From: an uncultured Lachnospiraceae bacterium
GTDB taxonomy: Bacteria; Bacillota; Clostridia; Lachnospirales; Lachnospiraceae
Direction: 5' to 3'
Length of the DNA: 54,839 nt
Assembly (NCBI GenBank): GCA_947626365.1
Contig: CANQRW010000015.1
Location: 1 to 54,839 of the forward strand
Shown: in pieces, positions 5,457-53,340 of the stretch
Layout of the letters: each line of letters opens with the position of its first letter
Numbering within the stretch: position 1 is the first letter of the stretch
Notes under the pieces: model-generated
Databases searched by the model: none
Seen by the model: only the letters and a program-made list of their open reading frames with translations
Told to the model about the DNA's origin: nothing
Program-made: the position numbers and the translations under genes

Positions 5457-5570
5457 GAGGGTATCTCCAAAGCCGTTTTTTTGCATACTGACGCAATATG
5501 AATTGTTCCCTTCCAAACAGCCAAGTCGGGGAGCAGTTCCGTACTGCCTGCGGCTCTGAGAGATACCCTC
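5457..5570 (+). terminator. Interrupted terminator hairpin after the ACT gene
   Basis: A perfect 11-bp stem, GAGGGTATCTC at 5457-5467 with GAGATACCCTC at 5560-5570, continues with a second 5-bp stem, AGCCG at 5471-5475 with CGGCT at 5551-5555. The loop is 75 nt long and begins with seven T and the dispersed tag (GCATACTGACGCAATATG). A normal terminator loop is under 10 nt, so a terminator seems to have been opened by an insertion. It lies between convergent genes and could stop either transcript. Confidence 0.5.
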
Positions 5571-5598
5571 TTTCTGTACCGTCTCTCCCGATCCGGAT

Positions 5599-6135
5599 CT
5601 ATCCGAACTTTCGCACCTCACAGTTCTTCATTCCGAAGGCCGCGAAATCCTCATTTTCCATATCCTGAAAATAACTGGTGATTATCCGGCAGATTCCCCC
5701 GTGGGTCACCAGCAGAATATTCTTTCCTCTGCTTTCCTCCAAAAGCTTTTCCAGAAAAGGATATACTCTGGCGGCCACATCCAGGTACGACTCTCCGCCG
5801 GGATACCGTTTCACAAATGTCCTCTTCTCCCGCTGATAAATCGGATCCGCCCGATCAACGCCCTCAAAAATGCCGAAATTATGCTCAATCAGGCAGGGCT
5901 CCGCCACCACACAGGGACGTGCGCCCTTTTGCCGGTCTGCCACCGCCTTAGCGGTATCCACCGTCCTCTGGAGCGGAGAGGTATAGATGATATCGATCGG
6001 CGTATCCGCAAGCCTTTCCGCAAGCTCCGCCGCCTGGGCAAATCCCTTTTCGTTCAAAGGGACATCTGTCCGCCCCAGTACTCTGTTTTCCCGGTTCCAG
6101 CCGGTCTCTCCGTGTCTCGCTATATAGATTGCCAA
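5599..6135 (-). CDS. Histidine phosphatase family protein (phosphoglycerate-mutase-like)
   Basis: This is a 178-residue protein with the catalytic RHGETGWN motif at the N-terminus (YIARHGETGWN), LNEKGFAQA, and the second histidine in LLVTHGGICR near the C-terminus. This is the GpmB/CobC-like branch of the histidine phosphatases. Start chosen at TTG 6135, placed 7 nt after AGGAGG and giving LAIYIARHGE; an ATG-type start further upstream would add 15 residues with no family counterpart. It lies 102 nt after trpA on the same strand and may be read through from the trp operon. The substrate cannot be told from the sequence. Confidence 0.85.
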   Translation of the reverse strand: MAIYIARHGETGWNRENRVLGRTDVPLNEKGFAQAAELAERLADTPIDIIYTSPLQRTVDTAKAVADRQKGARPCVVAEPCLIEHNFGIFEGVDRADPIYQREKRTFVKRYPGGESYLDVAARVYPFLEKLLEESRGKNILLVTHGGICRIITSYFQDMENEDFAAFGMKNCEVRKFG

Positions 6136-6237
6136 TAAAAATCCTCCTGTCTTTTCCGCGGGCCGCCGGTTCCGCGCCAATGGACGCGGCAGGCGGCTGC
6201 TTTTCCGGGTTCTTCCCTTTTCCGGATTCCGCCGGTT

Positions 6238-7008
6238 CTACCTCACCGCGTCCTTCATGCTCTTCACATACTCGCCTACATGTCCGGGAGCATCCTTGCC
6301 GTATTTCTCCAGAATCTTGATGATAGCCGAGCCTACGATGGCCCCGTCTGCGATTCCCGCCATTTTCCGGGCCTGCTCCGGCGTAGAGATGCCGAAACCG
6401 ATGGCGCAGGGCACATCCGTGTTCGCCCGGATCACCTCCACGATGGAAGCCAGATCCGTCTTGATCTCGCTCCGGGTTCCGGTGACGCCCAAGCTTGACA
6501 CCACATACACAAAGCCCTCCGCTTCCCTGGCGATCATGGCGATCCGGTTCTGGGAGGTCGGCGCGATCAGGGAGATCAGGTCCACGCCGTACTTATGGCA
6601 GGTATCCAGAAACTCCTCTTTCTCCTCGAAGGGCAGATCCGGCAGAATCAATCCGTCCATGCCGATTTCCCGGCAGGTGGAGATAAAACGCTCCGCCCCG
6701 TAGGAAAACACCACGTTGGCGTAGGTCATAAACACCATGGGAATGGTAACCTCATGCCGCAGGTTACGAACCAGGTCAAAAATCTTGTCGGTGGTAACGC
6801 CGCCCTTCAGGGCCCGCAGATTGGCTCCCTGGATCACCGGTCCCTCCGCCGTGGAATCGGAGAAAGGAATCCCCAGTTCGATCAGGTCCGCCCCGTTCTC
6901 CGCGCAGGCCTTTACCACTGCCGCCGTCGTGTCCAGATTCGGATCCCCGCAGGTAATAAAGGGAATGAATGCTTTTCCGCCCGCAAATGCTTCTCTGATT
7001 CTACTCAT
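6238..7008 (-). CDS. trpA: Tryptophan synthase alpha subunit
   Basis: This is a 256-residue TIM-barrel protein with family motifs [33 protein letters not shown] (catalytic Glu, and Asp near residue 50) and GFGISTPEQ. It cleaves indole-3-glycerol phosphate to indole and glyceraldehyde 3-phosphate, passing indole to TrpB. Start at ATG 7008 after GGGAGGATATTC; it overlaps trpB by 8 nt, so the two subunits are translationally coupled. It is the last gene of the trp operon. Confidence 0.97.
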
Positions 7009-8191
7009 GAATATCCTCCCCTCTGTACCGGGCGATGGCCGCGCAGTCCTTGTCGCCCCGGCCGGATATAGTAATGACAATGATCTGATCCTTATTCATC
7101 TCCGGCGCGATCTTCATGGCGTAGGCCACGGCGTGAGCCGATTCGATGGCCGGAATGATTCCCTCGGTCTTCGCCAGGTACTCAAAGGCATTGACCGCCT
7201 CGTCATCGGTAATGGCCACGTACTGGGCCCGGCCGATATCGTGAAGATGGGCGTGCTCCGGCCCGATACCCGGATAATCCAGACCGGCGGAAATGGAGTA
7301 GACCGGCGCGATCTGGCCGTACTCGTCCTGGCAGAAATAGGACTTCATGCCGTGGAAGATTCCCAGCCGTCCGGTGTTGATGGTAGCCGCCGTCTCGAAG
7401 GTATCGATGCCCCGGCCTGCTGCCTCGCAGCCGATGAGCCGCACGCTCTCGTCGCCGATGAAATGATAGAAGCTGCCAATGGCGTTGGAACCGCCGCCTA
7501 CGCAGGCGATGACTGCGTCGGGAAGACGGTCTTCCTTCTCCTTCAGCTGCTCTTTGATCTCCCTGGAAATGACCGCCTGGAAATCTCTTACGATGGTGGG
7601 AAATGGATGGGGTCCCATGACGGAGCCCAGGCAGTAGTGGGTGTCGTCGATACGGCTGGTCCACTCCCTCATGGCCTCGGACACCGCATCCTTCAGCGTC
7701 GCCGTCCCGCTCTTCACCGGGACTACCTCCGCTCCGAGAAGCCGCATGCGGTAGACATTGAGGGCCTGGCGGATGGTATCCTCCTCACCCATGAACACCA
7801 CGCACTCCATGCCCATCAGGGCCGCCGCCGTCGCCGTGGCGACGCCGTGCTGTCCCGCGCCGGTCTCCGCGATCAGCCGGGTCTTGCCCATCTTCTTCGC
7901 CAGAAGGGCCTGCCCCAGCACGTTATTGATCTTGTGGGCGCCGGTATGGTTTAAATCCTCCCGCTTCAGATAGATTTTCGCGCCCCCCAGGTCCTTCGTC
8001 ATCTTCGCCGCATAGTACAGCCGGGAAGGCCGCCCGGCGTATTCATTGAACAGTTCCGTCAGCTCCCGATTAAACTCCGGGTCATCCTTGTAGTGATTGT
8101 ACGCCTCCTCCAGCTCAATCACCGCATTCATCAGCGTCTCCGGAATATACTGTCCGCCGTGAATGCCAAAACGTCCGTTTACATTGGTCAT
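7001..8191 (-). CDS. trpB: Tryptophan synthase beta subunit
   Basis: This is a 396-residue PLP enzyme of the standard TrpB1 length. The PLP lysine lies in [18 protein letters not shown] (about residue 86), followed by [10 protein letters not shown] and the phosphate-binding GGGSNAIG. It condenses indole with serine to tryptophan and forms the alpha2-beta2 complex with the overlapping trpA product. A hairpin at 8226-8252 separates it from trpF. Confidence 0.98.
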
Positions 8192-8225
8192 AATCTTATT
8201 TCCTCATCTTTCTTTTCCTCTCAAG

Positions 8226-8252
8226 GCAGCCCGATTCATTTCACCGGGCTGC
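8226..8252 (-). other. Intercistronic hairpin between trpF and trpB
   Basis: An 8-bp perfect stem, GCAGCCCG at 8226-8233 with CGGGCTGC at 8245-8252 and an 11-nt loop, lies in the 95-nt gap. No U-run follows in the direction of transcription, so it more likely stabilises or processes mRNA than terminates it. Confidence 0.5.
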
Positions 8253-8286
8253 TTCCCGTCTCACCTTCTGCTGCCGGTCTTCTGGC

Positions 8287-8898
8287 TCATTCCGTTGCCA
8301 CGCTCCGCACCCGCCGGACAAAAGCCGCCATTTTTTCCCTGTCCTTCACTCCGCCGGTTTCGATCCCGGAGCTGACGTCCACGCCGTAGGGACGAAGCGC
8401 CTCCACCGCCGCCTTCACATTGTCCGGGTTCAGACCTCCCGCCAGAAAGTAAGGCCGGTCCATCTGCCGCAGCAGAGTCCAGTCAAAGACGGTTCCGGTT
8501 CCTCCGATGCCGGAGTCCAGAAGCACGTAGTCCGCCGAACAGGCTCTGGCCTTCTCAATATCCGCCATGGTCTCAATCCGAAAGGCCTTGATGATGGGCC
8601 GATCCGTCATAGTTCGCAGCCTTTTTATATAACCTTCATCTTCGCTTCCATGAAGTTGGGTTACATCAATGGTCCCATCCCTCAGAAGTTCCGCGATCAA
8701 TTCCGGTTTCTCATTGATAAAGACGCCCACCGCCTGAATCCGCGGAGACAGCTGCCGCCGCAGACGGGCCGCCTCCTCCGGCGGAATGTACCGCCGCCTG
8801 CCCGGCACCAGGATGAATCCCGCGTACTCCGGCATAAGCTCGTTGACCGCTTCCACATCAGCCGGTCTGGCAAGTCCGCACAGCTTGATTTTCGTCAT
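8287..8898 (-). CDS. trpF: Phosphoribosylanthranilate isomerase
   Basis: This is a 203-residue TIM-barrel enzyme with the N-terminal TKIKLCGLARPADV (catalytic Cys), VTQLHGSED and DYVLLDSGIGGTG, then FLAGGLNPDNV and GVDVSSGIETGG. It performs the Amadori rearrangement of N-phosphoribosylanthranilate. Start chosen at ATG 8898, preceded by GGAGGATAGGCCC; the frame is open for 18 more residues upstream, but these do not match the family. Confidence 0.96.
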   Translation of the reverse strand: MTKIKLCGLARPADVEAVNELMPEYAGFILVPGRRRYIPPEEAARLRRQLSPRIQAVGVFINEKPELIAELLRDGTIDVTQLHGSEDEGYIKRLRTMTDRPIIKAFRIETMADIEKARACSADYVLLDSGIGGTGTVFDWTLLRQMDRPYFLAGGLNPDNVKAAVEALRPYGVDVSSGIETGGVKDREKMAAFVRRVRSVATE

Positions 8899-9078
8899 GG
8901 GCCTATCCTCCGTCGTTTTTCTCTTATCAGTTCTGTTCAGCCGCGGTCTCATGGGGCTTATTATTCGCTGCAGTTATCCTGATACGCGCCATTCACGGCG
9001 CTGCGGGTTCCTGCTGCCTTGCGGGGTCCGCCACATCTCCGCTTGTTGATTCTGCTATCACCTCTTGCACAGGTCTGC

Positions 9079-9939
9079 TCACAATCCCCGCAGCTGGGCC
9101 AGCCGGGCTTTTTTGTCCGCCGCCCGCATCAGTGTCTCACCTACCAGCACCGCGTCGGCTCCGATCTCCCGGAGCTTTCTTACGTCCTCCGGTCCGCTGA
9201 CGCCGCTCTCTGACACAAAGATCGCCGACCGGGGTATCATCTGCCGCAGCCTGCGGCTGTTCTCCGTATCCACTGTAAAATCCTTCAGATTCCGGTTATT
9301 GACGCCGATGATCCGGGCACCTGCCCGAAGGGCCATCTCTACTTCTTTCTCATCATGGGCCTCCACCAGGGCCGAGAGCCCCAGCCCGTCGCAGACGCCG
9401 ATATACCCGTTAATCTGCTCTTCACTCAGTATGGAGCAGATCAGAAGCACCGCCGACGCCCCCAGAAGCTTTGCCTCCCAGATCATGTACTCGTCTACGG
9501 TAAAATCCTTCCGCAGGCAGGGAATCTTCACCGCGGCGGCAATCTGCCGCAGGTATTCATCGCTCCCCAGAAACCAATTGGGCTCCGTCAGCACGGAAAC
9601 CGCGTCCGCCCCTGCCGCCTCATACTCTCTGGCGATTTCCAGATAGGGGAACTCCGGCGCAATCAGACCTTTGGACGGAGACGCCTTCTTGCACTCGCAG
9701 ATAAAAGCGATGTCCGCTGCCGCCGATCCCGGCAGATTCAGATTCTGTCCTCCGGAAACGCCAAAACTCTCCGGCGCCGTTTCACCTGCTTCCCGGCCCT
9801 TTCTCAGAGCCCGCTCAAACCGGAAATCTCCCCTCGGCAGCGCTTCCGCCTGCCGCCGAAGTTCCTCCGGCGGGCACTTGAGCTTCGCCTGACTGACCCG
9901 CTCCCTGGCGTGGTCCGCCAGCTGATCCAGTATGGTCAT
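9079..9939 (-). CDS. trpC: Indole-3-glycerol phosphate synthase with a loop insertion
   Basis: This is a 286-residue protein, about 25 residues longer than usual TrpC. It contains FICECKKASPSKG, LRKDFTVDEYMIWEA, GVNNRNLKDFTVD and the C-terminal VSESGV. The reaction closes the indole ring from carboxyphenylaminodeoxyribulose phosphate. The extra length is a Gly/Ala/Ser-rich segment at about residues 48-76, between the helix ending FERALRK and the first core strand, where relatives have only a few residues. Start at ATG 9939 after GGAGGCAGATATT. The 180-nt gap to trpF (8899-9078) shows no feature. Confidence 0.96.
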   Translation of the reverse strand: MTILDQLADHARERVSQAKLKCPPEELRRQAEALPRGDFRFERALRKGREAGETAPESFGVSGGQNLNLPGSAAADIAFICECKKASPSKGLIAPEFPYLEIAREYEAAGADAVSVLTEPNWFLGSDEYLRQIAAAVKIPCLRKDFTVDEYMIWEAKLLGASAVLLICSILSEEQINGYIGVCDGLGLSALVEAHDEKEVEMALRAGARIIGVNNRNLKDFTVDTENSRRLRQMIPRSAIFVSESGVSGPEDVRKLREIGADAVLVGETLMRAADKKARLAQLRGL

Positions 9940-10013
9940 AATATCTGCCTCCGTTTCCTCGATTCTGATTATATCTCTTTGGCTGACAGCCCTGATTCCA
10001 TCATTTCAGGCGA

Positions 10014-13333: not shown

Positions 13334-13384
13334 GGCATTACCTCCTGAATCAACTTATATATCGCGGGCAGTAATCACTCCGCA

Positions 13385-13567
13385 CTCACCTCGTAAACGC
13401 TCCGCGTTTCCTCGGTCGCGGGCATTGTTCTTCTCTCTCCTTGTGAACGCTACGCTCTCACCTCGTAAACGCTCCGCGTTTCCTCGGTCGCGGGCTCTTG
13501 CCCCTCTCTTCTCGTGAGTGTTACGCACTCACCTCGTGAATGCTACGCATTCCCTCGGTCGCGGGCA
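13385..13567. repeat. Three mini-hairpin repeats in the trpE 5' region
   Basis: The block CTCACCTCG, small palindrome, CCTCGGTCGCGGGC occurs three times (about 13385-13424, 13457-13497 and 13528-13566). The central palindrome differs between copies while keeping pairing: AAACGC/GCGTTT twice, then GAATGC/GCATTC. Related palindromes (GTGAGTG/CACTCAC) fill the gaps. The array lies between the T-box terminator and trpE, so it would be in the mRNA leader. Confidence 0.85.
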
Positions 13568-13584
13568 TTGTTCCAATACCCGCG

Positions 13585-13647
13585 GCTCCGTAGGGCGTCG
13601 GATATTTGCTCCTGCAAGCAGGGCAAATATCCGACGCCCTACGGAGC
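13585..13647. repeat. Perfect 25-bp inverted repeat in the trp leader
   Basis: The arms 13585-13609 and 13623-13647 are perfectly complementary over 25 bp, and the 13-nt loop contains a further 5-bp stem (CCTGC/GCAGG). The folded leader RNA would carry a hairpin of about 30 bp. It is GC-balanced and has no U-run, so it does not look like a terminator. Confidence 0.9.
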
Positions 13648-13673
13648 TGCGAGTGCTGTAACAATTTGCCTAC

Positions 13674-25872: not shown

Positions 25873-26190
25873 ATTATTCTCCATGAAATACAGGACTTTC
25901 TGAATAACAGTTTATTCGATTTCAGCGCGGTCGTCAAGTTCCTGACCGACAGATGCGGCTGCTTGGGCCGCGCAAATAATTAAGCACAATGCTTGAAAAA
26001 ACAAGAAACGCGTCACTGGCGCGTTTCTTGCATACTGATATTCTTTTACCGCCTGATTGGGGGCCTGGCTGTCCATATTGAGAAGCAGCCCGTTGCTTTT
26101 GCGAACCGCCGCCAGGTCATATCGCATCTTCCTGCCCGGCATCCCCCGGCGCCGTCAGCTACACCTCGCAGCCGGGGGATCAAAAGCTCC
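25873..26190 (-). other. Gene-free stretch with a hairpin and a peptide-like remnant
   Basis: A minus-strand frame at about 26025-26142 encodes RYDLAAVRKSNGLLLNMD and AVKEYQ, which look protein-like, and then runs into the dispersed repeat. Its start is poor. Between it and the ATPase fragment lies a perfect 10-bp stem, ATCCCCCGGC (26141-26150) with GCCGGGGGAT (26171-26180). Nothing else is evident. Confidence 0.35.
26003..26040 (+). repeat. Dispersed terminator-tag repeat, copy 2
   Basis: AAGAAACGCG, a 7-nt loop and CGCGTTTCTT form a perfect 10-bp hairpin, followed by GCATACTGATATTC, a variant of the tag. On the minus strand the hairpin is followed by TTGTTTTTT, so it can end minus-strand transcripts. 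Confidence 0.8.
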
Positions 26191-30716: not shown

Positions 30717-30735
30717 GCATACTGACGTAATACAA
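30717..30735 (+). repeat. Dispersed tag, copy 3
   Basis: GCATACTGACGTAATAC occurs on the plus strand, directly beside the hairpin at 30739-30774. On the minus strand, in which the genes run, it follows the hairpin and its short U-run. Confidence 0.85.
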
Positions 30736-40115: not shown

Positions 40116-40727
40116 ATGCTTTCCACTCTTACTGCATATATCGTGATTCCTATCTATACTCTCCTGTTCGTCAGCGGTACCGACTGGTTCTCAACAAACC
40201 TGTCGGTCATCGGAAGCTGGCCGGACAGGAGATTTGCTTTTACAGGACTTGGCCTGGTTCTTGGTCTCTATTTTTATACCATTCTCAAACGGCTTATGTC
40301 ACACCTTCCCAGGCACAGGAATGAGACTCTGTGCGTGAACCTTGCGCTTCTTCTTCTGCTGCTGGCTGTCGCCACGCCCTACCTGCCCAGACAAATGCCG
40401 CTCCAGTCCTTCCTTCATATTGTATTTGCCCTTCTGTCCTCTATCCTGCTGCTTCTGTGCCTGTACCGGATCGTCTGGCTGCTTTCCTCTACCTCCGGCG
40501 ACGCCAGAAGGTTCCTGAAACCTTATAAGATCATGCTTCTTTTTATTACATTAATCAGCGGTCTGCTGCTCTTCCTGGCCGGCATCATCAGCAGCGCCCT
40601 GGAAATCTTCTTCGTTCTGTCCGCCACAGTCATGGTACAGCGCCTTTACCGCGGCTATTCTCGCGCCTTTTCCAATTCCCGATACACCAAAACGCATCAC
40701 TGGCGCGTTTTTCGCATACTGACGTAA
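40116..40727 (+). CDS. Six-helix membrane protein of unknown function
   Basis: This is a 203-residue, strongly hydrophobic protein with about six membrane helices, starting LTAYIVIPIYTLLFVSG. The general layout resembles DUF998-type proteins, but I am not sure. The last 14 codons (KTHHWRVFRILT and neighbours) are made of the dispersed terminator-tag repeat, so the native C-terminus may have been altered by that element. It lies 84 nt after the reductase gene in the same direction. GGAGG precedes the ATG. Confidence 0.65.
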   Translation: MLSTLTAYIVIPIYTLLFVSGTDWFSTNLSVIGSWPDRRFAFTGLGLVLGLYFYTILKRLMSHLPRHRNETLCVNLALLLLLLAVATPYLPRQMPLQSFLHIVFALLSSILLLLCLYRIVWLLSSTSGDARRFLKPYKIMLLFITLISGLLLFLAGIISSALEIFFVLSATVMVQRLYRGYSRAFSNSRYTKTHHWRVFRILT

Positions 40728-40773
40728 TACAAAAACGCGTCACTGGCGCGTTTTTTGCATACTGACGTAATAC
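40689..40773 (+). repeat. Dispersed terminator-tag repeat, copies 4 and 5 in tandem
   Basis: Two adjacent 42-43-nt copies (40689-40730 and 40731-40773) each hold AAAACGCG, TCACTGG, CGCGTTTTTT and then GCATACTGACGTAATAC. The hairpin plus T-run is a good rho-independent terminator for the plus-strand genes. The first copy lies inside the end of the membrane-protein gene; the second is intergenic, before convergent ftsH. Confidence 0.9.
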
Positions 40774-40831
40774 AAAAACAGCCACCTGGCCGGATCCAGT
40801 CAGATGACTGCCTCGATCATACATATTTCAT

Positions 40832-42787
40832 TTAATTTCCCGCCGGATTCTGCATCGGTCGCGGACCTTCTGCAGACACCGGGCTCTCCGGCCGTGCGGA
40901 AATTCCCGCAGGCACATGATTCTCCGCGGCAGTACCGGCCTGCGCCGTCCTGCCGTCCCGGATCTCATGGAAAATCTTCATGAACTCCTTGCCTGTGATA
41001 GTCTCCTTCTCAATCAGGAATTCGGAAATCTTATCCATAGCGTCGCGGTTCTCGCTGAGCAGCCGTTTCGCCTCGACATAGGCTTCCTTCAGCATCCGCA
41101 TCACTTCCTGGTCGATCTCCGCCGCCGTAGCCTCGCCGCAGTTCAGCACCATGCGTCCGCTTAAATACTGATCCTCCTGAGTCGCCAGTCCCATCAGTCC
41201 AAACTTCTGGGACATGCCGTACTGGGTCACCATGGCCCTGGCGATCCGCGTCGCCTTCTCGATATCATTGGCCGCGCCTGTGGTCACCGTGTCAAACACG
41301 ATCTCCTCCGCCGCCCGGCCGGCCAGGCTGACTACCAGCATGGCTTTCAGTTCCTTCTCCGTATTCAGGTACTTCTCCTCCTCAGGCACCTGCATCACAT
41401 AGCCCAGGGCTCCCATAGTACGGGGCACGATCGTGATCTTCTGCACCGGCTCCGCATCTTTCTGCAGGGCGCTGACCAGAGCATGGCCCACCTCGTGATA
41501 AGATACGATCCGGCGCTCTTCTTTGCTGAGCACCCGGTCCTTCTTCTCCTTTCCTACCAGAACCACTTCCACGGCCTCAAACAGATCTCTCTGGCTCACC
41601 GCGTTTCGTCCGTTCTTGACGGCCAGAATAGCCGCCTCGTTGATCATATTGGCCAAGTCGGAACCCACCGCGCCGGAGGTGGCCAGGGCAATAGCCTCCA
41701 GATCTACCGTCTCGTCAAGGGCCACATTCTGGGCGTGCACCTTCAGGATATCCACACGGCCTCTCAGATCCGGCTTATCCACGATAATGCGCCGGTCAAA
41801 ACGGCCCGGACGCAGAAGGGCCGGGTCCAGGATCTCCGGACGGTTGGTAGCCGCCAGCACCAGAAGGCCCTTGGAGGAATCAAATCCGTCCATCTCCGAC
41901 AGCAGCTGATTCAGGGTCTGCTCCCTCTCGTCGTTGCCGCCGCCGTAACGGGAATCACGGCTCTTGCCGATGGCGTCTACCTCGTCAATAAAGATGATAC
42001 AGGGGGCGTTGTCCTGGGCCTGCTTGAACAGATCCCGGACACGGGACGCGCCAACGCCCACGAACATTTCCACAAAATCAGAACCGGACAGAGAGTAGAA
42101 CGGCACATGGGCCTCGCCTGCCACCGCCTTGGCAAGAAGAGTCTTACCGGTTCCGGGCGGGCCTACCAGCAGGGCTCCCTTGGGCAGCTTGGCGCCGATG
42201 TGAGTATATCTTCCCGGATTGTGAAGGAAGTCCACAATCTCCACCAGGGATTCCTTAGCTTCATCCTCTCCGGCTACGTCTTTAAAGGTAACTCCGGTTT
42301 CCTTCTGCATATACATCTTGGCCGTGCTCTTGCCGACGCCCATGACGCCGCCGCCCATACGCCTCATCATCATATTCATAAGGAACAGAATGGAGCCGAA
42401 CATCAGCACCGTGCTCATAATGCTCCACAGCGCCGTATTCTGCTGCAGCTGCTCATAGACGATATTGGCTTTCTCCAGCCGCAGCGTCAGCTGGTCCCCG
42501 CTCTCAATCCGCACGGTGCTGTAGGTAATGGCCGGTATATTAGGCAGCGGATGATCTTCCTTCAGCGTAAAAAGGATATCGCTTCCGTCAATGGTAACCT
42601 CATCGACCTGCCCTGCCTCCAGATAATCCAGAAACTCACTGTAAGGCACAGTCGTCTGGCGGTTCATAAAGTTGCTCATCATCATGATTACCAGAAATGT
42701 AATCAATCCTGCTGTCAGGATAACGCCGAAAATCTGATTGTAATTCGGCCCCTTACCCTGGTTATTTCGGTTGTTTCTATCATTCAT
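40832..42787 (-). CDS. ftsH: ATP-dependent zinc metalloprotease FtsH
   Basis: This is a 651-residue protein: an N-terminal helix ([16 protein letters not shown]), a periplasmic-side domain, a second helix near 120-138, the AAA+ domain ([32 protein letters not shown] region [17 protein letters not shown]) and the protease domain with HEVGHA. It degrades misfolded membrane and regulatory proteins. The last 40 residues (Pro/Gly/Ala/Glu-rich) are variable, as in the family. Confidence 0.98.
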
Positions 42788-44688: not shown

Positions 44689-45591
44689 ATGAAAAAAGTA
44701 TTATCTTTAACCCTGACCATGGCCATGGTTCTGTCCCTGGCTGCCTGCGGAAGCTCCACTTCTTCCGCTCCCGCTGAAACTACCGCTGCCGCCGCGGAAA
44801 CCACCGCTGAAGATACCACGGCAGAAGAAACCACTGCTGCCGAGACAGAAGCTGCTGAGACGGAGGCCGCTGAAGCGGAAACTGACAGCGATCTGGCTTA
44901 TGTCCAGGACAAGGGAACCCTGGTCGTGGGTATCACGGAGTTTGAGCCTATGGATTATCAGGATGAGAACGGCGAGTGGATCGGCTTCGACGCCGACATG
45001 GCCAAAGCATTCGCGGAGAGCCTTGGCGTAGACGCGGAATTCATCGTAATCGACTGGGACAACAAGATTCTGGAACTGGAAGGCAAGACCATCGACTGTG
45101 TCTGGAACGGCATGACCCTGACTGACGAAGTGACCAGCGCCATGGAATGTTCCAACGCTTACTGCAACAATGCTCAGGTTATTATCGTTCCTGCCGATGT
45201 GGCCGATCAGTATCAGGATACGGACAGCCTTTCCGATCTGTCCTTCGCCGTAGAGGCAGGAAGCGCCGGCGAAGCTGAGGTTGATGCCCTCGGACTTACA
45301 TACACCTCTGTAACCTCCCAGGCAGACGCCCTGATGGAAGTCGCCGCAGGCACCTCTGACGCCGCTGTCATCGACTCCCTAATGGCTGCCGCCATGGTAG
45401 GCGAGGGAACCGGCTACGCGGACCTGACCTACACCGTCGGCCTCAACAGTGAAGAGTACGGCGTCGGATTCCGCAAGGGTTCCGATCTGGCTGCAGCCCT
45501 CAACGATTTCTTTGCCGACAGCTACGCAGACGGCTCCATGGAAGCATGCGCGGAGACCTACGGCGTGCAGGCCGCGCTGATTGAGCAGTAA
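44689..45591 (+). CDS. Amino-acid ABC transporter substrate-binding lipoprotein
   Basis: This is a 300-residue family 3 binding protein. It has a signal peptide with lipobox SLAACGSS (Cys20), then a Thr/Glu/Ala-rich linker (residues 25-63), then the binding domain (GTLVVGITEFEPMDYQDENG, IGFDADMAKAFAESLGVDAE). It likely binds a polar amino acid such as Gln, Glu or Cys. ATG follows TGGAGGAGAAAGATC. The final codons are the first unit of a 29-nt tandem repeat that continues past the stop. Confidence 0.93.
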   Translation: MKKVLSLTLTMAMVLSLAACGSSTSSAPAETTAAAAETTAEDTTAEETTAAETEAAETEAAEAETDSDLAYVQDKGTLVVGITEFEPMDYQDENGEWIGFDADMAKAFAESLGVDAEFIVIDWDNKILELEGKTIDCVWNGMTLTDEVTSAMECSNAYCNNAQVIIVPADVADQYQDTDSLSDLSFAVEAGSAGEAEVDALGLTYTSVTSQADALMEVAAGTSDAAVIDSLMAAAMVGEGTGYADLTYTVGLNSEEYGVGFRKGSDLAAALNDFFADSYADGSMEACAETYGVQAALIEQ

Positions 45592-45680
45592 CCGTACCGG
45601 CCGCACTGATTGAGCAGTAACCATACAGGCCGCGCTGATTGAACAATGCGCGCGGCGGCCGTGCTGACCGAACAGTAACG
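45570..45680. repeat. 29-nt tandem repeat spanning the 3' end of the binding-protein gene
   Basis: Four units with 29-nt period begin at 45570, 45599, 45628 and 45657; each resembles GGCCGCGCTGATTGAGCAGT. The first encodes the last residues and stop of the lipoprotein. Divergence rises in later units. Confidence 0.9.
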
Positions 45681-46493: not shown

Positions 46494-46507
46494 GGAGGGA
46501 AAATCAG

Positions 46508-47284
46508 ATGCCTATTTTAGAAGCCCGAAATATCTGCAAGACCTTTGAACATACCGAAGTTTTGAAGCATATCGATCTCTCCCTGGAACAGGGACAGGTG
46601 CTTTCCATTATCGGTTCCTCGGGAAGCGGCAAGACCACTCTGCTTCGGTGCCTGAATTTTCTGGAGCGTCCTGACAAAGGCGTTATCCGTGTCAATGAAG
46701 AGACCCTGTTTGACGCGGACGATCCCGCCACCTTAAGCGAAGCGGCCATACGCAAAAAGCGGCTGCACTTCGGCCTGGTGTTCCAGTCCTTCAATCTGTT
46801 TCCCCAGTACACTGCCATGGAAAACGTCATGCTGGCGCGAAAGCTCCTGGCAGAGGAACGCCCGGATTTCAAGTCGAGAAAGCGAGAAATCTATGACGAG
46901 ATCGAGGCTCAGGCAAAAACGCTCCTGGACCAGATGGGACTCTCCAACCGGCTGGACAATTATCCCCATCAGCTTTCCGGCGGTCAGTGCCAGCGTGTGG
47001 CCATTGCCCGCGCCCTGGCCCTTCAGCCCGACATTCTCTGTTTCGATGAACCCACTTCGGCTCTGGATCCGGAGCTGACCGGCGAAGTGCTGAAGGTGAT
47101 CCGGGAACTGGCGGACAAAAACACTACCATGATCATTGTCACCCACGAGATGTCCTTTGCCAGAGATGTGGCCAACCACGTGATCTTCATGGATGACGGC
47201 GTCATCGTGGAGCAGGGACCGCCAGCAGAAGTTTTTGGAAACCCGAAGGAAGAGCGGACGAAACAGTTTCTATCACATTATTGA
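46508..47284 (+). CDS. Amino-acid ABC transporter ATP-binding protein
   Basis: This is a 258-residue ATPase: Walker A IIGSSGSGKTTLLRCLNFLE, signature LSGGQCQRVAIARAL, Walker B ILCFDEPTSALDPE, and H-loop IVTHEMSFARDV. It belongs to the polar amino-acid (GlnQ/HisP) subfamily and powers the upstream permease. ATG at 46508 follows TAAGGAGGGAAAATCAG. A terminator follows at 47325-47363. Confidence 0.97.
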   Translation: MPILEARNICKTFEHTEVLKHIDLSLEQGQVLSIIGSSGSGKTTLLRCLNFLERPDKGVIRVNEETLFDADDPATLSEAAIRKKRLHFGLVFQSFNLFPQYTAMENVMLARKLLAEERPDFKSRKREIYDEIEAQAKTLLDQMGLSNRLDNYPHQLSGGQCQRVAIARALALQPDILCFDEPTSALDPELTGEVLKVIRELADKNTTMIIVTHEMSFARDVANHVIFMDDGVIVEQGPPAEVFGNPKEERTKQFLSHY

Positions 47285-47324
47285 TTTCCTTATCGACAAA
47301 TACATTGCCGCATGCGGCAGAATC

Positions 47325-47363
47325 AAGCCATAGATTTCAGGCAATTTCTGAAATTTATGGCTT
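47325..47363 (+). terminator. Terminator of the amino-acid ABC operon
   Basis: A 16-bp stem (AAGCCATAGATTTCAG with CTGAAATTTATGGCTT, one G-U) and a 7-nt loop are followed by TTATT. A short perfect palindrome, TGCCGCATGCGGCA, lies at 47306-47319 just before it. Confidence 0.9.
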
Positions 47364-47427
47364 TTATTGCAAGCTGCCGCCGCTTATAATTCTCTCATCA
47401 TCGCCTCATACTACTCATGAGGTGATG

Positions 47428-47856
47428 ATGAACATGCGCGATAAACAAAGCAGCCAAAGCCCCCGCTGGACTACCAATCCAAATATTGCCGCGGAAACCT
47501 GCGGCAGCGGCTTTCCCTTTGGCACCAATACCGTAAACAACGATTACCGCTATACAAGGCAGACGGAACTCGGAGGCAGCCGTGACCGCGGCGACAGCAG
47601 TGATTTCGCTGACACTGGCGGAAACTCCGACAGCTCCCGCGGCTACGCTCCCACCGGCAGTGACATCGGCGACGGGCATGGCTACGCTCCCACTGGCGAT
47701 TCCGACCAGGATTATGAAGAAGACGAGATGCTGAACATGAAGGCCTGCTCCGCCATGGAGTGTACCGGTCTGATTCCGTCCCTTCCCCTGTCCGACTCCG
47801 AGCTGGAATCCTATGCGGAAATCTACCATTATCCGGCGGATGTGTTCCGGGATTAA
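47428..47856 (+). CDS. Hypothetical acidic protein with GYAPTG repeats
   Basis: This is a 142-residue soluble protein. N-terminal part has RWTTNPNIAAETCGSGFPFG. The middle (about 48-92) is Gly/Asp/Ser-rich with two RGYAPTG/HGYAPTG units, and the C-terminus has the more conserved-looking CSAMECTGLIPSLPLSDSEL and SYAEIYHYPADVF. No family is recognised. Start chosen at ATG 47428 after GAGGTGATG; ATGs at 47425 and 47434 are alternatives. It follows the ABC terminator, with its own strong terminator after it. Confidence 0.6.
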   Translation: MNMRDKQSSQSPRWTTNPNIAAETCGSGFPFGTNTVNNDYRYTRQTELGGSRDRGDSSDFADTGGNSDSSRGYAPTGSDIGDGHGYAPTGDSDQDYEEDEMLNMKACSAMECTGLIPSLPLSDSELESYAEIYHYPADVFRD

Positions 47857-47871
47857 ATACTGACGTAATAC
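47857..47871 (+). repeat. Dispersed tag, copy 6
   Basis: ATACTGACGTAATAC starts directly after the stop codon of the GYAPTG protein and just before the terminator stem at 47875. Confidence 0.85.
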
Positions 47872-47874
47872 TGC

Positions 47875-47914
47875 AGAAAGCGCAGGTAACCATAAAAGAT
47901 TGCCTGCGCTTTCT
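47875..47914. terminator. Bidirectional terminator between the GYAPTG gene and uxuA
   Basis: AGAAAGCGCAGG (47875-47886) pairs perfectly with CCTGCGCTTTCT (47903-47914), 12 bp with a 16-nt loop. The flanking genes converge, so it can serve both. Confidence 0.75.
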
Positions 47915-47943
47915 CACGCCCGATTGATCAATTTATCGATTCA

Positions 47944-49038
47944 TCATTTCTTCTCTGCATCCAGCTTGTCCAGCATATCCCACACACCAAGCATGTACAT
48001 AACGCCCAGGGCCCGGTCGTAGAGGCCGTATCCGGGACGGACATTGCCCGGCTTCTCATCCCACAGATGACGGCCGTGGTCCGGACGGATATATCCCTCG
48101 AAACCGCAGTCGTGGTAGGCCTTCAGGATATCCAGGATTCCGGTATCGCCGTCGCAGTCGCGGTGGCTGGCCTCACTGAAGTCTCCGTTGGGGAAGTGCT
48201 TCACGTTGCGGATGTGGGCAAAGGCGATCCGGTCGCAGTGCTTGCGGACGATATCCGCCACATTGTTGTTGGGATCCGCGTTCAGGGAACCGCTGCACAG
48301 TGTCAGGCAGTTGTAGGGATCGTCCACCATGGACAGGAACCGGTCAATGGCCTCTCCGTTCACCAGCAGCCTGGGCAGGCCGAAGATATCCCACGGCGGA
48401 TCATCCATATGTACCGCCATCTTGATGTCGCACTCATGGCAGGTCGGCATGATAGCCTCCAGGAAATACTTGAAATTCTCCCACAGCTTCTCCTTGGTCA
48501 CAGGAGCATAGGCCTTAAACAGCTCGTCCAGCTTGGCCATGCGCTCCGGCTCCCAGCCGGGGAAGGTCATGTTGTACTTCTCGGTAAAGGACATGATGTA
48601 CTCCGCCATAGCGTTGTAATCATCCTGGATCATATCCTTCTGGTAATACAGAGCGGTAGAACCGTCCCCCACCGGATGGAACAGATCCGATCTTGTCCAG
48701 TCGAAAATCGGCATGAAGTTGTAGCAGATGACCTTGACTCCGAAGGGAGCCAGGTTGCGGATGGTCTGCTTGTAGTTTTCAATGTACTTGTCCCTGGTAG
48801 GCAGACCAATCTTGATGTCGTCGTGGACATTGACCGACTCAACCACATCCATGTTGAAGCCGTAGGCTTCAATCTGCTTCTGCACTTCCGCAATCTCTTC
48901 CGGCTCCCAGACCTCGCCGGGCATCTTGTTGTGCAAGGCCCAGACAATGGTAGAGACACCGGGAATCTGCCGGATATCGGACAGGGTTATCTTGTCGTTA
49001 CCCTCTCCGTACCAGCGCCAACCCATTTGCATCGGCAT
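47944..49038 (-). CDS. uxuA: Mannonate dehydratase
   Basis: This is a 364-residue enzyme of the UxuA family: MQMGWRWYGEGNDKITL, IPGVSTIVWALHNKMPGE, YNFMPIFDWTRSDL, and metal-binding HMDDPPWDIFGLPR (His/Asp). It converts D-mannonate to 2-keto-3-deoxygluconate in glucuronate breakdown. ATG at 49038 follows AAAGGAGG. The SDR gene upstream encodes the preceding step. Confidence 0.96.
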   Translation of the reverse strand: MPMQMGWRWYGEGNDKITLSDIRQIPGVSTIVWALHNKMPGEVWEPEEIAEVQKQIEAYGFNMDVVESVNVHDDIKIGLPTRDKYIENYKQTIRNLAPFGVKVICYNFMPIFDWTRSDLFHPVGDGSTALYYQKDMIQDDYNAMAEYIMSFTEKYNMTFPGWEPERMAKLDELFKAYAPVTKEKLWENFKYFLEAIMPTCHECDIKMAVHMDDPPWDIFGLPRLLVNGEAIDRFLSMVDDPYNCLTLCSGSLNADPNNNVADIVRKHCDRIAFAHIRNVKHFPNGDFSEASHRDCDGDTGILDILKAYHDCGFEGYIRPDHGRHLWDEKPGNVRPGYGLYDRALGVMYMLGVWDMLDKLDAEKK

Positions 49039-49153
49039 AGTGTTACCTCCTTTTTCTTTCTTTTATTTTTTCGTTTTCCCTGAAAGCCGCCGAAAACGCA
49101 GGTCGCTCTCACATTCTGACCGGCCGGCCCCGTGGGTTCCGAAATCAAACGCC

Positions 49154-50002
49154 TTAAACCCCGGAATACGCGGAGAATCCGCCGTCGATGGGGATGACCA
49201 CGCCGGTGACAAAGCCGGCCGCGTCGTTATTCAGCAGATAGAGAAGAGTCCCGTTCAGCTCCTCCGCCTTGCCGAAACGTCCCATGGGGGTCGCCGCCAG
49301 AATCTTCTCGGTTCTCGGAGTCGGCGTACCGTCATCGTTAAACAGCAGCTTCTGATTCTGATTGGTCACGAAGAATCCGGGGGCCATGGCGTTGACACGG
49401 ATGCCTACCTTGGAGAAATGAACCGCCAGCCACTGAGTAAAGTTGCTGACCGCCGCCTTGGCGCCGCTGTATGCCGGAATCTTGGTCAGAGGCGTGAACG
49501 CGTTCATGGAAGACACATTCAGGATATTGCAGCCTTCCCGTCCGATCATGTCCTTGGCAAATATCTGGGTAGGCAGAAGCGTTCCGATAAAGTTCAGGTT
49601 AAATACAAACTGCACGCCGTTCTGATCCAGATCAAAGAAAGACACCGTATCGGCCTCAATATCGCCGATCTCAAAATATTCCTTCTGGGTCTGCGCTCTG
49701 GCATTGTTGCCGCCGGCGCCGTTGACCAGAATGTCGCAGGGCCCCAGCTCCGCCAGAACCTTCTCATGTGTCTGTTCCAGACTTTCCTTCTCCAGCACGT
49801 TGGTCTTGTAAGCCTTTCCTATGTTCCCCGCAGCCGTGATCTCGTCGGCTACCTTTTGGGCCGCCTCCTCATTCAAATCGAGAACCGCTACCTTCGCGCC
49901 GGCCTCCGCCAGCGTTTTGGCAAACATGCCGCACAGCACGCCGCCAGCGCCTGTCACAACCGCCACTTTTCCGGTCAGATCTGTACCAAATGATAATCCC
50001 AT
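49154..50002 (-). CDS. uxuB: SDR-family D-mannonate oxidoreductase (fructuronate reductase)
   Basis: This is a 282-residue short-chain dehydrogenase: the cofactor motif VVTGAGGVLCG, NGAGG, the catalytic Ser in NVSSMNAFTPLTKIPAYSGA with YSGAK for Tyr/Lys, and the C-terminal VTGVVIPIDGGFSAYSGV. The SDR type is the Bacillus-like UxuB; the neighbouring uxuA supports reduction of D-fructuronate to D-mannonate. Strict assignment among SDRs is inferred from context. ATG follows GAGGGGTAACT. Confidence 0.88.
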   Translation of the reverse strand: MGLSFGTDLTGKVAVVTGAGGVLCGMFAKTLAEAGAKVAVLDLNEEAAQKVADEITAAGNIGKAYKTNVLEKESLEQTHEKVLAELGPCDILVNGAGGNNARAQTQKEYFEIGDIEADTVSFFDLDQNGVQFVFNLNFIGTLLPTQIFAKDMIGREGCNILNVSSMNAFTPLTKIPAYSGAKAAVSNFTQWLAVHFSKVGIRVNAMAPGFFVTNQNQKLLFNDDGTPTPRTEKILAATPMGRFGKAEELNGTLLYLLNNDAAGFVTGVVIPIDGGFSAYSGV

Positions 50003-50159
50003 AGTTACCCCTCGCTTTCTATACTTATATTATATACTTTCTGCAGCACAGCCCTGTTCCTGTTCCAGAACTCCGGGAACCGCTCCGCGCTGCTTTCTGC
50101 TTACAAGAATAGTATAACAAATCTGTCAGCAAATTACATGGAAACTTTTGTGATTAACA

Positions 50160-50188
50160 TTGCAAAAATTGTTATTATTGTATATAAT
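50160..50188 (+). promoter_or_regulatory. Promoter of the AraC-family regulator
   Basis: TTGCAA (50160-50165), a 17-nt spacer and TATAAT (50183-50188), leader about 35 nt. The 227-nt divergent region before uxuB shows AT-rich inverted patches (AAACTTTTG/CAAAAATT) that may be regulator sites; no good promoter toward uxuB is visible. Confidence 0.7.
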
Positions 50189-50229
50189 TAGATGCAGAAC
50201 CAATCATTGTCTGTCAGAAGGAGACGGTC

Positions 50230-51132
50230 ATGGCTAAACGACAGTATAGAAAAAAAGAACTGTCCACCACCTTTGATACGCGACAGTACATGGAGACGCC
50301 GGATTTCGAGATTTTCTACTATCGGGACGTCAACCTGAAACCGGTCCGATTCCATCAGCACGAATATTACGAACTGTTTTTCTTCCTGGAGGGAGACGTC
50401 GATTACCGGGTGGCGAATTCCGTCCACTCACTGGAATACGGTGATCTTCTGCTGATTCCCCCCGGCGTGGAACACCGGCCTTATTTTCGCAATATCAAAA
50501 GCACTTACCGCAGGTTCGTCCTGTGGCTGGGCAAAGACTTTTACCATCGTCTGGCGGAAATCTCCGATGATTTTGCCTACGGATTCAACCGGGCTCAGAC
50601 ATACGGCAGATATCATGTGCGCTGCGGCTATGTCCCAGCTCAGGAAATCCAGGCGAAATTTATCGAACTGGTGCAGGAACACGGGGGGCAGAATCCCTTC
50701 CGCGATACCAGCTGCCGCCTGATCATCGCCTCTCTGCTCATGCAGATCAACCGGATGCTGTACCAGTCCGACCACATGGACTCCCCTGCCCGTGAAAAAA
50801 ATCTCTATCTGAATCTGTGCGACTACATCAGCAATCATCTGGAGGAGGATCTGTCTCTGGATGCCCTGGCCGGTTTTTTCTATGTCAGCAAATATCACAT
50901 TGCTCACGTATTTAAGAACAATATGGGCATCTCCCCCCACCAGTATGTGACGAAGAAACGTCTTCAGGCCAGCAGACATGAAATCATGGCGGGAGTTCCC
51001 TTCAATCAGATCAGCCTTCAGTACGGATTTCAGGATTATACCAGCTACTACCGGGCTTTTCGGAAGGAATTCGGCCTGTCCCCCACCGAATTCCGAGAAC
51101 AGAATCCCATGCCGAAGCCCACGTCTCTTTAG
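50230..51132 (+). CDS. AraC-family regulator with cupin sensor domain
   Basis: This is a 300-residue protein: a cupin-like ligand-binding half (about 25-120; FHQHEYYELFFFLEGDVDY, GDLLLIPPGVEHRP) and a C-terminal AraC pair of HTHs (LDALAGFFYVSKYHIAHVFK and ISLQYGFQDYTSYYRAFRKE). It probably senses a uronate-related sugar and controls the divergent uxuB-uxuA operon. ATG follows AGAAGGAGACGGTC. Confidence 0.93.
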   Translation: MAKRQYRKKELSTTFDTRQYMETPDFEIFYYRDVNLKPVRFHQHEYYELFFFLEGDVDYRVANSVHSLEYGDLLLIPPGVEHRPYFRNIKSTYRRFVLWLGKDFYHRLAEISDDFAYGFNRAQTYGRYHVRCGYVPAQEIQAKFIELVQEHGGQNPFRDTSCRLIIASLLMQINRMLYQSDHMDSPAREKNLYLNLCDYISNHLEEDLSLDALAGFFYVSKYHIAHVFKNNMGISPHQYVTKKRLQASRHEIMAGVPFNQISLQYGFQDYTSYYRAFRKEFGLSPTEFREQNPMPKPTSL

Positions 51133-51165
51133 AATATTTTCACACTCGCTGAAAAGGAGTCTGTC

Positions 51166-52227
51166 ATGACATCATATTCCAGTCTTCTGTCCACGGATGC
51201 TTATAAAAACTGCCGGCTCTGTCCCAGACAATGCGGGACGGACCGTACTGTCCGCACCGGTTACTGCGGCTGCACAGACCGGATCCGAGTCGCCCGCGCC
51301 GCCCTTCACATGTGGGAGGAGCCCTGTATCAGCGGGACATTTTCCGACGGCATGGGCGGCAGCACGGAGCCTGCGGACCCTGGCGAACCCGACAGCATAT
51401 CGGCATGTCCGTCACATCCCGGCGGCAGCGGCGCTGTCTTCTTCAGCGGCTGTACTCTGGGCTGCTGTTTCTGCCAGAATTACAAAATCAGCCATGACCG
51501 GTTCGGAAAGGAAATATCCGTCCGACAGCTGACTGACTGTTTCCTGCGGCTGCAGGATCAAGGCGCTTACAATATCAATCTGGTCACGGCCACCCATTAT
51601 CTTCCCTCTGTCGTATCCGCCCTGGAACTGGTCAAAGACCGGCTGACCATACCCATCGTCTACAACTGCGGCGGCTATGAGCGGCCGGAGATTGTGGAAG
51701 CTCTGTCCGGATACGTGGATATCTGGCTTCCGGATCTGAAATACATGGACCGCGGCCTGTCCGCTCGATATTCCCAGGCTTCCGATTATTTTGAGCAGGC
51801 TTCCATCGCCATCCGGCAGATGATCGGTCAGACCGGCGCTCCGGTTCTGGACGACCGGGGTATCATGACTTCCGGCGTGGTGATCCGCCATATGGTACTG
51901 CCCGGCGCCCGTCAGGATTCCATCCGTCTCCTTCACTGGATGAAGGAGAACCTTCCGAAAGGATCCTATTATCTGAGCCTGATGAGCCAGTACACTCCTG
52001 CCGGAGCGGTTAAGGAACACGCTGTCTCACCGTCACAGCCGGGCCAGAAGGATTCCGCCGGCAGACAGACCTCCCTTTACCCGGAACTGTCCCGCCGAAT
52101 CACTACCTATGAATACGAATCTGTCCTGAACGCCGCTCTGGAACTGGGACTGGACACGGGTTATATGCAGAAAAAAAGCAGCGCCAAAGAGGAATACACG
52201 CCGCCTTTCAATCTGGAGGGATTATAA
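51166..52227 (+). CDS. Radical SAM protein, PflX/COG1313 type
   Basis: This is a 353-residue protein. An N-terminal zinc-knuckle-like part (NCRLCPRQCGTDR, GYCGC) precedes the radical SAM motif SGCTLGCCFCQNYKIS (CxxxCxxC). Later stretches IVYNCGGYE and DIWLPDLKY fit the pyruvate formate-lyase-activating-like COG1313 family, whose substrate is unknown. Two polar insertions (about residues 62-86 and 285-305) look like low-complexity loops. It lies 33 nt after the AraC gene, with AAAAGGAG. Functional link to uronate metabolism is uncertain. Confidence 0.88.
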   Translation: MTSYSSLLSTDAYKNCRLCPRQCGTDRTVRTGYCGCTDRIRVARAALHMWEEPCISGTFSDGMGGSTEPADPGEPDSISACPSHPGGSGAVFFSGCTLGCCFCQNYKISHDRFGKEISVRQLTDCFLRLQDQGAYNINLVTATHYLPSVVSALELVKDRLTIPIVYNCGGYERPEIVEALSGYVDIWLPDLKYMDRGLSARYSQASDYFEQASIAIRQMIGQTGAPVLDDRGIMTSGVVIRHMVLPGARQDSIRLLHWMKENLPKGSYYLSLMSQYTPAGAVKEHAVSPSQPGQKDSAGRQTSLYPELSRRITTYEYESVLNAALELGLDTGYMQKKSSAKEEYTPPFNLEGL

Positions 52228-52242
52228 GATATCCCTCCGGTT

Positions 52243-52310
52243 CCTTATTCTATTATCCTTATTCTATTATCCTTATTCTATTACCCTTATTCTATCATCC
52301 TTATTCTTTT
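52243..52310. repeat. 14-nt minisatellite between radical SAM and degV
   Basis: Four full and one partial copies of CCTTATTCTATTAT fill almost all of the 89-nt gap between the convergent stop codons. Copies 3-5 differ by one or two bases. Confidence 0.92.
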
Positions 52311-52316
52311 ATCTCT

Positions 52317-53147
52317 TCATCCTTCATACCCGATCATAAGTCCGCCCTTCTCCGCGTAAAAACTGCAGAGAGCCGTACAGAATGTAGTGCGGACGTCCGC
52401 GTTCGGAAACCTCTCATGAATCACGTCCGTAAGCTTCTGCGCGATTCCGGGATTGAAACAATGGGCCAGGCGGACCTTCCCGCCGCTGTAGCCATGAGCC
52501 AGCATTTCCTTCCAGGTACTTGACACCGTCAGGGCCTCTCCGCGGCACTTGTGAAGCTGCTGCAGCGTGCCTTCATCACTGGCCTTGCCCACGATACGAA
52601 TCCCCAGAATCCCGGCAATCTTGGCCACTGCCGGATTCACGCGGCCGTTCCTGGCCAGGTTATCCAGATGCTCCAGGCAAAACAGCAGATGGCTGTGCCT
52701 GCAGTACTCCTCGATCTTCTGCTCCATCTCCTCGAAACTGCCCCCAGCCTGCACCACCTCGGTCATCTTCTCCACAATCAGTTCCAGTTCCGGCCCGGCG
52801 GACAGGGAATCCACGATCATCACCTTCGCCTTCGGATGTTCCGCCAGATACTCCTCCCTGGCCTTCACAGCGGAAGCATAGCTTCCGGACAGATTACTGG
52901 TAATCGCGACGCCGAAGATCACATCCGCATCCCCAAAAGCCTCCAGCCAGTCGTTTACATTGGGACAGGACGTGCTGGAACGCCCCTTGTAACCCTGAAG
53001 ATAATCTACCATTTCCGCAAGATTTGTTCCTTTTACATCCACATATTCCCTTTCATCCGTAATGATCTTCAGGGGAACGCTGGTAAAATCCACTCCTTCT
53101 ATCTCATAAAGATTCGCTGACGAATCCGCCACTATTTTGTATTTCAT
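52317..53147 (-). CDS. DegV family fatty-acid-binding protein
   Basis: This is a 276-residue protein with the DegV layout: KIVADSSANL, TSCPNVNDWLEAF, ITSNLSGSYASA, VDSLSAGPELELIVEKM, and the C-terminal FNPGIAQKLTDVIHERFP. DegV (FakB-like) proteins bind a fatty acid and may hand it to a kinase FakA. The kinase is not in the window. Weak ribosome site (GAGGGT). Confidence 0.93.
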   Translation of the reverse strand: MKYKIVADSSANLYEIEGVDFTSVPLKIITDEREYVDVKGTNLAEMVDYLQGYKGRSSTSCPNVNDWLEAFGDADVIFGVAITSNLSGSYASAVKAREEYLAEHPKAKVMIVDSLSAGPELELIVEKMTEVVQAGGSFEEMEQKIEEYCRHSHLLFCLEHLDNLARNGRVNPAVAKIAGILGIRIVGKASDEGTLQQLHKCRGEALTVSSTWKEMLAHGYSGGKVRLAHCFNPGIAQKLTDVIHERFPNADVRTTFCTALCSFYAEKGGLMIGYEG

Positions 53148-53275
53148 ACCCTCGGCCTCGCTTTTTATGCTTTTCCATGTAGTTTCAAAAACTACTTTAC
53201 AAGGTCTATTGTATTGCGTTTGCCGGAGAATGTCAAGATATATATGGAATCTTTCGCAAACAGAGCGTAATTGGC

Positions 53276-53340
53276 TTTTTTTGCATACTGGCGTAAAACA
53301 AAAAACGCGTCGCTGGCACTCTTTTGTATACTGGCGTAAC
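53276..53340 (+). repeat. Dispersed terminator-tag repeat, copies 7 and 8
   Basis: Two divergent copies: TTTTTTTGCATACTGGCGTAAAAC (split here as TTTTTTT and GCATACTGGCGTAAAAC, 53276-53299) and an ACGCGTCGCTGGCACTC hairpin-like part followed by GTATACTGGCGTAAC (53300-53340). They have GGCG in place of GACG and weaker hairpins than copies 4-5. Confidence 0.75.

Follow-up and report, generated by a model that had tools for sequence, protein, structure and literature searches.

The 54,839-nt stretch of DNA analysed here (the window; contig CANQRW010000015.1 of an uncultured Lachnospiraceae bacterium) contains a dispersed 17-nt tag, GCATACTGACGTAATAC, for which a first-pass annotation had proposed three readings: an uptake-like sequence within terminators, a strand-biased chromosome signal or a mobile palindromic element. 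The tag does not stand by itself. It is the head of a larger unit, read on the opposite strand, and this unit is a genuine mobile hairpin element, present in high copy number and found mainly in one gut-bacterial genus. Its mobility is well supported. We put a probability of roughly 0.6 on the reading that it is a REP/PATE-like non-autonomous element that travels in single-stranded form, on the template of the lagging strand, and whose mover is probably a Y1 transposase of the IS200 type.

Architecture and distribution of the unit

Read on the strand opposite to the tag, the unit comprises (GTA)TT followed by ACGTCAGTATGC, a hairpin with the loop GCCAGTGAC, and then GTATT, and is 44-45 nt long. 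The contexts of tags were studied in the window and 60 further stretches, 1.0 Mb in total. The unit hairpin follows 110 of the 203 matches to TTACGTCAGTATGC with up to three mismatches (some of the 203 resemble chance matches in coding sequence); of these 110 heads, 29 form tandems, lying behind another such hairpin, and the remaining 81 are solo or come first. The right end was not found in 13 of the 110, and the other 97 divide into 31 that lead into another tag and 66 last copies. This end is sharp, because T follows GTAT in 60 of the 66 last copies and the subsequent bases are near random; 78 of the 97 measure 45 nt as far as GTAT. First copies are preceded by a T-rich stretch and then by G (39/81), T (51/81) and A (55/81), and tandem units share GTATT. 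The 5' foot of the hairpin is mostly GTATGC and sometimes GTATAC; in type 2 units, which have a spacing of 39 nt, it is CCATGC.

The loop GCCAGTGAC is conserved, and the stem varies in sequence yet stays paired. In 63 genuine sequences of 49 nt with flank, out of 79 distinct sequences extracted, 94.4% of the stem cells are paired, and two-sided changes occupy 66 cells as against 25.2 (standard deviation 3.5, maximum 37) over 500 shuffles. Perfect 11-bp stems are present in 30 of the 63, with arms of nine different kinds, and an earlier count of 38 rows, one of them non-genuine, agrees. A strong hairpin lies directly behind 72 of 148 heads and behind 3 of 148 controls.

The genome to which the window belongs (G000) consists of 3,496,966 bases in 144 contigs, and the motif is far commoner there than its control. 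Allowing up to three mismatches, the 17-mer has 122 forward and 81 reverse matches (203 in total) and the reversed control has 8; the 15-mer core at up to one mismatch has 58 forward and 38 reverse matches (96; control 1), and the stem-loop core at up to two mismatches has 91 and 59 (control 4). Tags lie outside naive open reading frames (ORFs) of at least 80 amino acids in 104 of 138 cases. A covariance model of the unit gives at least 46-120 matches in 10 of 26 members of the genus, which we refer to as loaded, and 0-12 in the others (99 candidates scored per genome). In a family-wide draw at least 6 of 299 genomes, including two from this genus, matched at E<=1e-4 when 20 candidates were scored in each. 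An exact 28-nt pattern with one free position matched two contigs, from one uncultured Lachnospiraceae metagenome-assembled genome (isolate Lapin-023), in a scan of genome contigs that may exclude G000 itself.

The dominant head depends on the species, being either ACGTCAGTATGC or TCCATGC, with the hairpin shared. The second head, TTTCCATGC, stands before the same loop and at up to two mismatches is abundant in eight genomes (G008, 174; G001, 153; G004, 126; G014, 106; G011, 101; G002, 78; G018, 75; G012, 44) and rare in G000 (11) and in its sister species G023 (8), with a control of 0 or 1 per genome; arrays mixing both heads occur. A genome of a more distant genus (G032, locus L117) has the same loop GCCAGTGAC with an unrelated stem, CATCAAAACT/AGTTTTGATG, in two near-identical copies. 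We also observed a second, longer palindromic repeat (type B, GGGGCTGCTGCAGAAT...GCAGTGAATATT), which stands behind some heads and also occurs alone (L019, L028, L066 and L220); at one site (L220) it replaces the short hairpin behind an identical head.

Other identities for the repeat were considered and rejected. Spread by phages or plasmids is not indicated, as the 17-mer has no exact match in viral contigs and a 61-nt query is unmatched in phage and plasmid records. Nor is it a known RNA family: Rfam at gathering scores reports only a tRNA in the window, and a search of one array at E<=1 gives five microRNA or small nucleolar RNA matches, all far below gathering scores. A literature search, mainly of listings with few subscription papers, found no report of this element or of an IS200 element aimed at terminators.

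Turnover, landing site and strand

We compared copy positions with those in G023, a sister species rather than another strain, whose colinear blocks are about 80-97% identical in a 20-kb part of the window. The comparison set comprises the 17 of 108 clusters in G000 that have both flanks inside G023 stretches, and the tally is our own reading of the alignments. Fourteen of the 17 sites differ, in whole units, stem, head, hairpin or copy number. The element is missing from G023 at five: window 40.7 kb and window 53.3 kb, which are the two testable sites of the window and are both empty, L065, the first site of L022, and L047, which was judged from a short gap of low identity. Seven sites hold something different at the same place in the two genomes. 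The stem differs at the first site of L014, at L037 (read from the G023 side) and at L012; L056 has one hybrid unit versus two; the head differs at L021; both unit number and stem differ at the second site of L041; and at L031/L220 an identical head is followed by the short hairpin in G000 and by a long unrelated hairpin in G023. At the second site of L022 and the first site of L041 the head stands alone in G000 and is part of a full unit in G023. Three sites are alike: L027 (also read from the G023 side), L013 (with flanks of 77-79% identity) and the second site of L014. On the G023 side, where 17 of 57 clusters were mapped, units at L173 and L220 are absent from G000; L186 and L200,0 were excluded as tag-like, alike and probably coding, and L179 as ambiguous.

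We conclude that the units turn over by insertion and, probably, by tandem contraction, and that they are not a fixed signal. The presence or absence of units and the exchange of stems at orthologous sites, together with sharp ends, the loading of 10 of the 26 genus members and the scarcity of matches in the rest of the family, support the first of the three original readings, that of a mobile palindromic element.

The landing site is characteristic. Of 101 heads that are first or solo, 61 have a strong upstream hairpin whose end is at most 12 nt away, compared to 2 of 101 segments taken 265 nt farther upstream and 1 of 101 shuffles, and the eight bases directly before the head contain 3.2 T on average versus 1.8; first copies lie preferentially on the 3' side of such hairpins, which are of terminator type and have a T-rich stretch.

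The sense strand of the element is on the G-rich strand at 87 of 110 sites (binomial p = 6e-10) and on the other at 23. We take the G-rich strand as the lagging-strand template, with GC skew of the surrounding ~20 kb, rather than a finished chromosome, as the proxy for replication direction. The strand bias of the second original reading therefore holds over the stretches studied, although it is best understood as an outcome of the mode of insertion. At the 108 sites that have an upstream gene, the element is on the strand of that gene in 67 of 75 cases where the gene runs with the fork and in 14 of 33 where it is head-on, so that both the direction of the gene and that of replication matter. 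One hairpin is flanked by opposite heads at L055, L060 and L061, as expected if a bidirectional terminator is struck from both strands.

A candidate mover and competing explanations

A search of G000 for Y1 family genes gave five matches, all IS200-like, of which one is intact and the rest are broken or partial. No RAYT (REP-type) transposase is among them, which speaks against the linked REP-type transposase that the first-pass annotation had suggested looking for and against a RAYT-linked REP. The intact IS200-like element (L071/L222; G000:C11:58476-58934) lies within a tag, in the order GTATT, IS200, ACGTCAGTAAGC, between GTATT and ACGTC, and its insertion point is exactly the inferred boundary of the unit. 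The element encoding a 97%-identical TnpA in G011 adjoins the GTATT of a unit, and in G014 an IS200 element lies behind a terminator T-tract. Genes of this TnpA subfamily, intact or broken (at least 82% identity), have a unit within their ~3 kb locus in 4 of 6 cases, all four in loaded genomes, as against 0 of 9 for other Y1 genes (one match at E 0.67 excluded). The units beside IS200 genes look like landing sites. IS200 and the unit therefore share a landing site, and we infer that IS200 is the mover.

The unit would move as single-stranded DNA, with an IS200-type Y1 (HUH) transposase binding its hairpin and cutting after GTATT at both ends, the cut presumably being guided by the ATGC at the 5' foot of the hairpin, which is able to pair with GTAT. 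It would then be pasted 3' of another hairpin whose tail, T-rich or GTATT, is exposed on the template of the lagging strand. A terminator may in this way imitate the right end of the element, and units may be lost or scrambled through slipped recombination within tandem arrays. Published Y1 mechanisms, as described in the available parts of PMC6006769 and PMC7290912, involve recognition of a hairpin, a guide at its 5' foot, use of the lagging-strand template, and insertion that places the element 3' of a short target and does not duplicate it. These fit the behaviour of the unit except for the choice of a terminator as target.

Several observations weigh against this reading. Y1 enzymes are described as taking a tetra- or pentanucleotide rather than a hairpin as target (same available parts of PMC6006769 and PMC7290912), and targeting of terminators is thus unexplained by the known mechanism; moreover, 40 of the 101 heads that are first or solo lack a strong hairpin upstream (30 at a looser cut-off). 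The ends of IS200 (GGGCTTTAGCCC hairpin; ...GGCGACT), read at L071, L079 and L080 only, with the right end also at L073, are different hairpins from that of the unit, no autonomous copy with exact unit ends was found, and IS200 may merely use the unit end as a landing site. A gene of the TnpA subfamily (E<=1e-20) was found in none of six of the ten loaded species; five of these lack any Y1 match and the sixth, G023, lay outside that search. Fragmented assemblies may lose repeats, and we regard this counter-evidence as weak but real. The empty sites are too diverged for base-exact definition of the junctions, the number of stem pairs with two-sided change (6) is not above that in shuffles (5.1), and genes too favour the G-rich strand (489 of 729, 67%), which accounts for part of the strand bias of the element.

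Some of these points would also suit a mobile hairpin moved by a different enzyme, either a lost or unrecognised RAYT or a recombinase outside the Y1 family, with IS200 only landing at its ends. We consider this possible, if on balance unlikely. The want of a close TnpA in six loaded species, unit ends unlike those of IS200, and the G014 copy of IS200 behind an ordinary terminator are consistent with it, but we saw no further gene linked to the units, and the Y1 matches of G000 are IS200-like (other recombinase families were not screened), and the coincidence of the IS200 insertion point with the inferred unit boundary argues for the IS200-type mover.

Somewhat more tentatively, the unit may represent a class of single-hairpin transposon that reads its target as if it were another right end of the transposon, with the hairpin between the fixed ends as exchangeable cargo. 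On the template of the lagging strand, all terminator hairpins that have a T-rich tail would then act as surrogate ends, and units would stack behind terminators and behind each other for this reason. The site at which the same head is followed by different hairpins in G000 and G023 (L031/L220) lends this idea support.

It is improbable that the unit is instead a terminator or mRNA 3'-end module maintained by selection and spread via gene conversion and slippage without transposition. The hairpin is stable and has flanking A/T runs, units are mostly near the 3' ends of genes, and compensatory change preserves stem pairing, all as such a module would have it. A conserved head and loop are, however, unnecessary for termination, a strong hairpin already precedes 61 of the 101 first or solo heads, the whole unit is absent at 5 of 17 orthologous sites, and replication affects orientation beyond gene direction. 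Least credible of all is a DNA uptake sequence or a replichore signal of the KOPS or Chi kind, which the ~200 tag matches and the bias at 87 of 110 sites might suggest, but which is disfavoured because sites vary between sister species, the dominant head changes from ACGTCAGTATGC to TCCATGC with the hairpin the same, copies are tied to hairpins with which the motif travels as a unit, and 23 of 110 sites have the opposite orientation.

If movement by an IS200-type enzyme is correct, REP-like repeats extend to a Lachnospiraceae genus with an IS200-type instead of a RAYT mover, and the unit offers an example from nature of single-strand transposition directed to the hairpins of terminators. Its strand bias, where it lands, how it stacks in tandem and how it turns over would all be readable from genomes, and the choice of a target by hairpin shape by a Y1 enzyme becomes testable. 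It would also caution that strand-biased repeats beside terminators are not necessarily uptake or segregation signals.

Copies in the window and relation to known systems

At up to three mismatches the tag GCATACTGACGTAATAC has six matches in the window, all on the plus strand (5483, 30717, 40714, 40757, 47855 and 53283), where chance predicts 0.01 (100 shuffles). Two more of the eight copies originally listed are decayed: that at 26029 retains its hairpin with the tag reduced to its first part, and that at 53326 has a divergent tag. The minus strand of the window has zero matches at the same threshold, as first reported, yet this one-strandedness is local. The GC skew of the window is -0.136, which places it within one replichore and so accounts for the single orientation of its tags. 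The covariance model places units on the minus strand at 40726-40773, 25998-26046, 53295-53342 and 40681-40725, and matches the three solo tags weakly (17-20 bits).

Table 1. Units, heads and an associated terminator in the window.
Feature	Coordinates	Strand	Placed by	Remarks
Tandem unit pair: head TTACGTCAGTATGC, hairpin, GTATT, second head, hairpin	40681..40773	-	tag matches and covariance model	tags begin at 40714 and 40757 (+); site empty in G023
Terminator-type hairpin and T-tract, directly 5' of first unit	40774..40810	-	by eye	downstream of (-) ORF 40832-42787; G023 retains T-tract and much of hairpin
Single unit, hairpin intact (stem CAAGAAAC/GTTTCTTG), head decayed	25998..26046	-	covariance model	
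Decayed tandem, two heads around one hairpin	53283..53342	-	tag matches and covariance model	tags 53283 and 53326; absent in G023
Solo head, exact tag, 3' of terminator-type hairpin	30717..30733	-		no unit hairpin behind
Solo head 3' of hairpin	47855..47871	-		overlaps stop codon of convergent (+) ORF 47281-47856
Solo head, 2 mismatches to 17-mer	5483..5499	-		between convergent ORFs 5003-5428 (+) and 5599-6180 (-)

Four other repeats were seen in the window: three 63-nt direct repeats spaced at ~72 nt and, after them, an inverted repeat whose arms measure 43 nt (13361-13665), a 14-nt tandem repeat of TCCTTATTCTATTA (52242-52311), a tandem array of three overlapping 54-nt copies with 29-nt spacing (45568-45679), and a 15-nt tandem repeat like CTGCCGTCTCCATCA (2068-2142).

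REP and REPIN sequences are short intergenic palindromic repeats of high copy number that occur singly, clustered or in tandem, possibly with several subfamilies per genome, and they are thought to be mobilised in trans by a Y1 (HuH-Y) protein, TnpA_REP/RAYT (available parts of PMC3116915 and PMC6006769). Like these, our unit consists of many dispersed intergenic hairpin copies. Unlike these, it has no GT[AG]G at the foot of the hairpin, we note that some REP subclasses permit other feet (PMC6006769, available part), and the Y1 search of G000 gave no tnpA_REP gene flanked by the repeat, the arrangement known as a REPtron. Most of the arrays seen are head-to-tail rather than inverted doublets, and it sits behind terminators with a constant head and loop and an exchangeable stem.

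PATEs, the ends-only relatives of IS200/IS605, are non-autonomous hairpin elements that are often movable by a trans-acting transposase and lie 3' of a short sequence without duplication (available part of PMC7290912). The unit shares the lagging-template orientation of IS200/IS605 derivatives (87 of 110 sites by the GC-skew proxy), but has a single hairpin in place of the two subterminal hairpins of a PATE and is about 44 nt long (39-nt spacing in type 2) compared to ~271 nt for an example in the same part of PMC7290912. It does not keep the ends of the resident IS200, and it is placed 3' of terminator hairpins. As to a fixed target of the PATE kind, a T-rich stretch and then G/T/A precede first copies, IS200 follows GTATT in G000 and G011, and the empty sites are diverged.

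Group IIC introns insert 3' of terminator-type stem-loops, and the unit is like them in its landing site but is a 44-nt hairpin without intron RNA or reverse transcriptase. Uptake sequences in terminators are likewise a repeated motif concentrated at terminators, in which the terminator hairpin is itself built from complementary motif copies (in part PMC2267715). In our unit, by contrast, the motif lies beside the hairpin, as a head, and the two move together; across the species group the dominant head varies, with the hairpin shared. The unit is therefore closest to REPs and to the ends-only elements of IS200/IS605, yet fails the defining tests of each because it has no GT[AG]G foot, no RAYT gene and no IS ends. 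What seems to be new is the landing beside terminators, the single exchangeable hairpin between fixed ends, and the coincidence with the insertion point of IS200.

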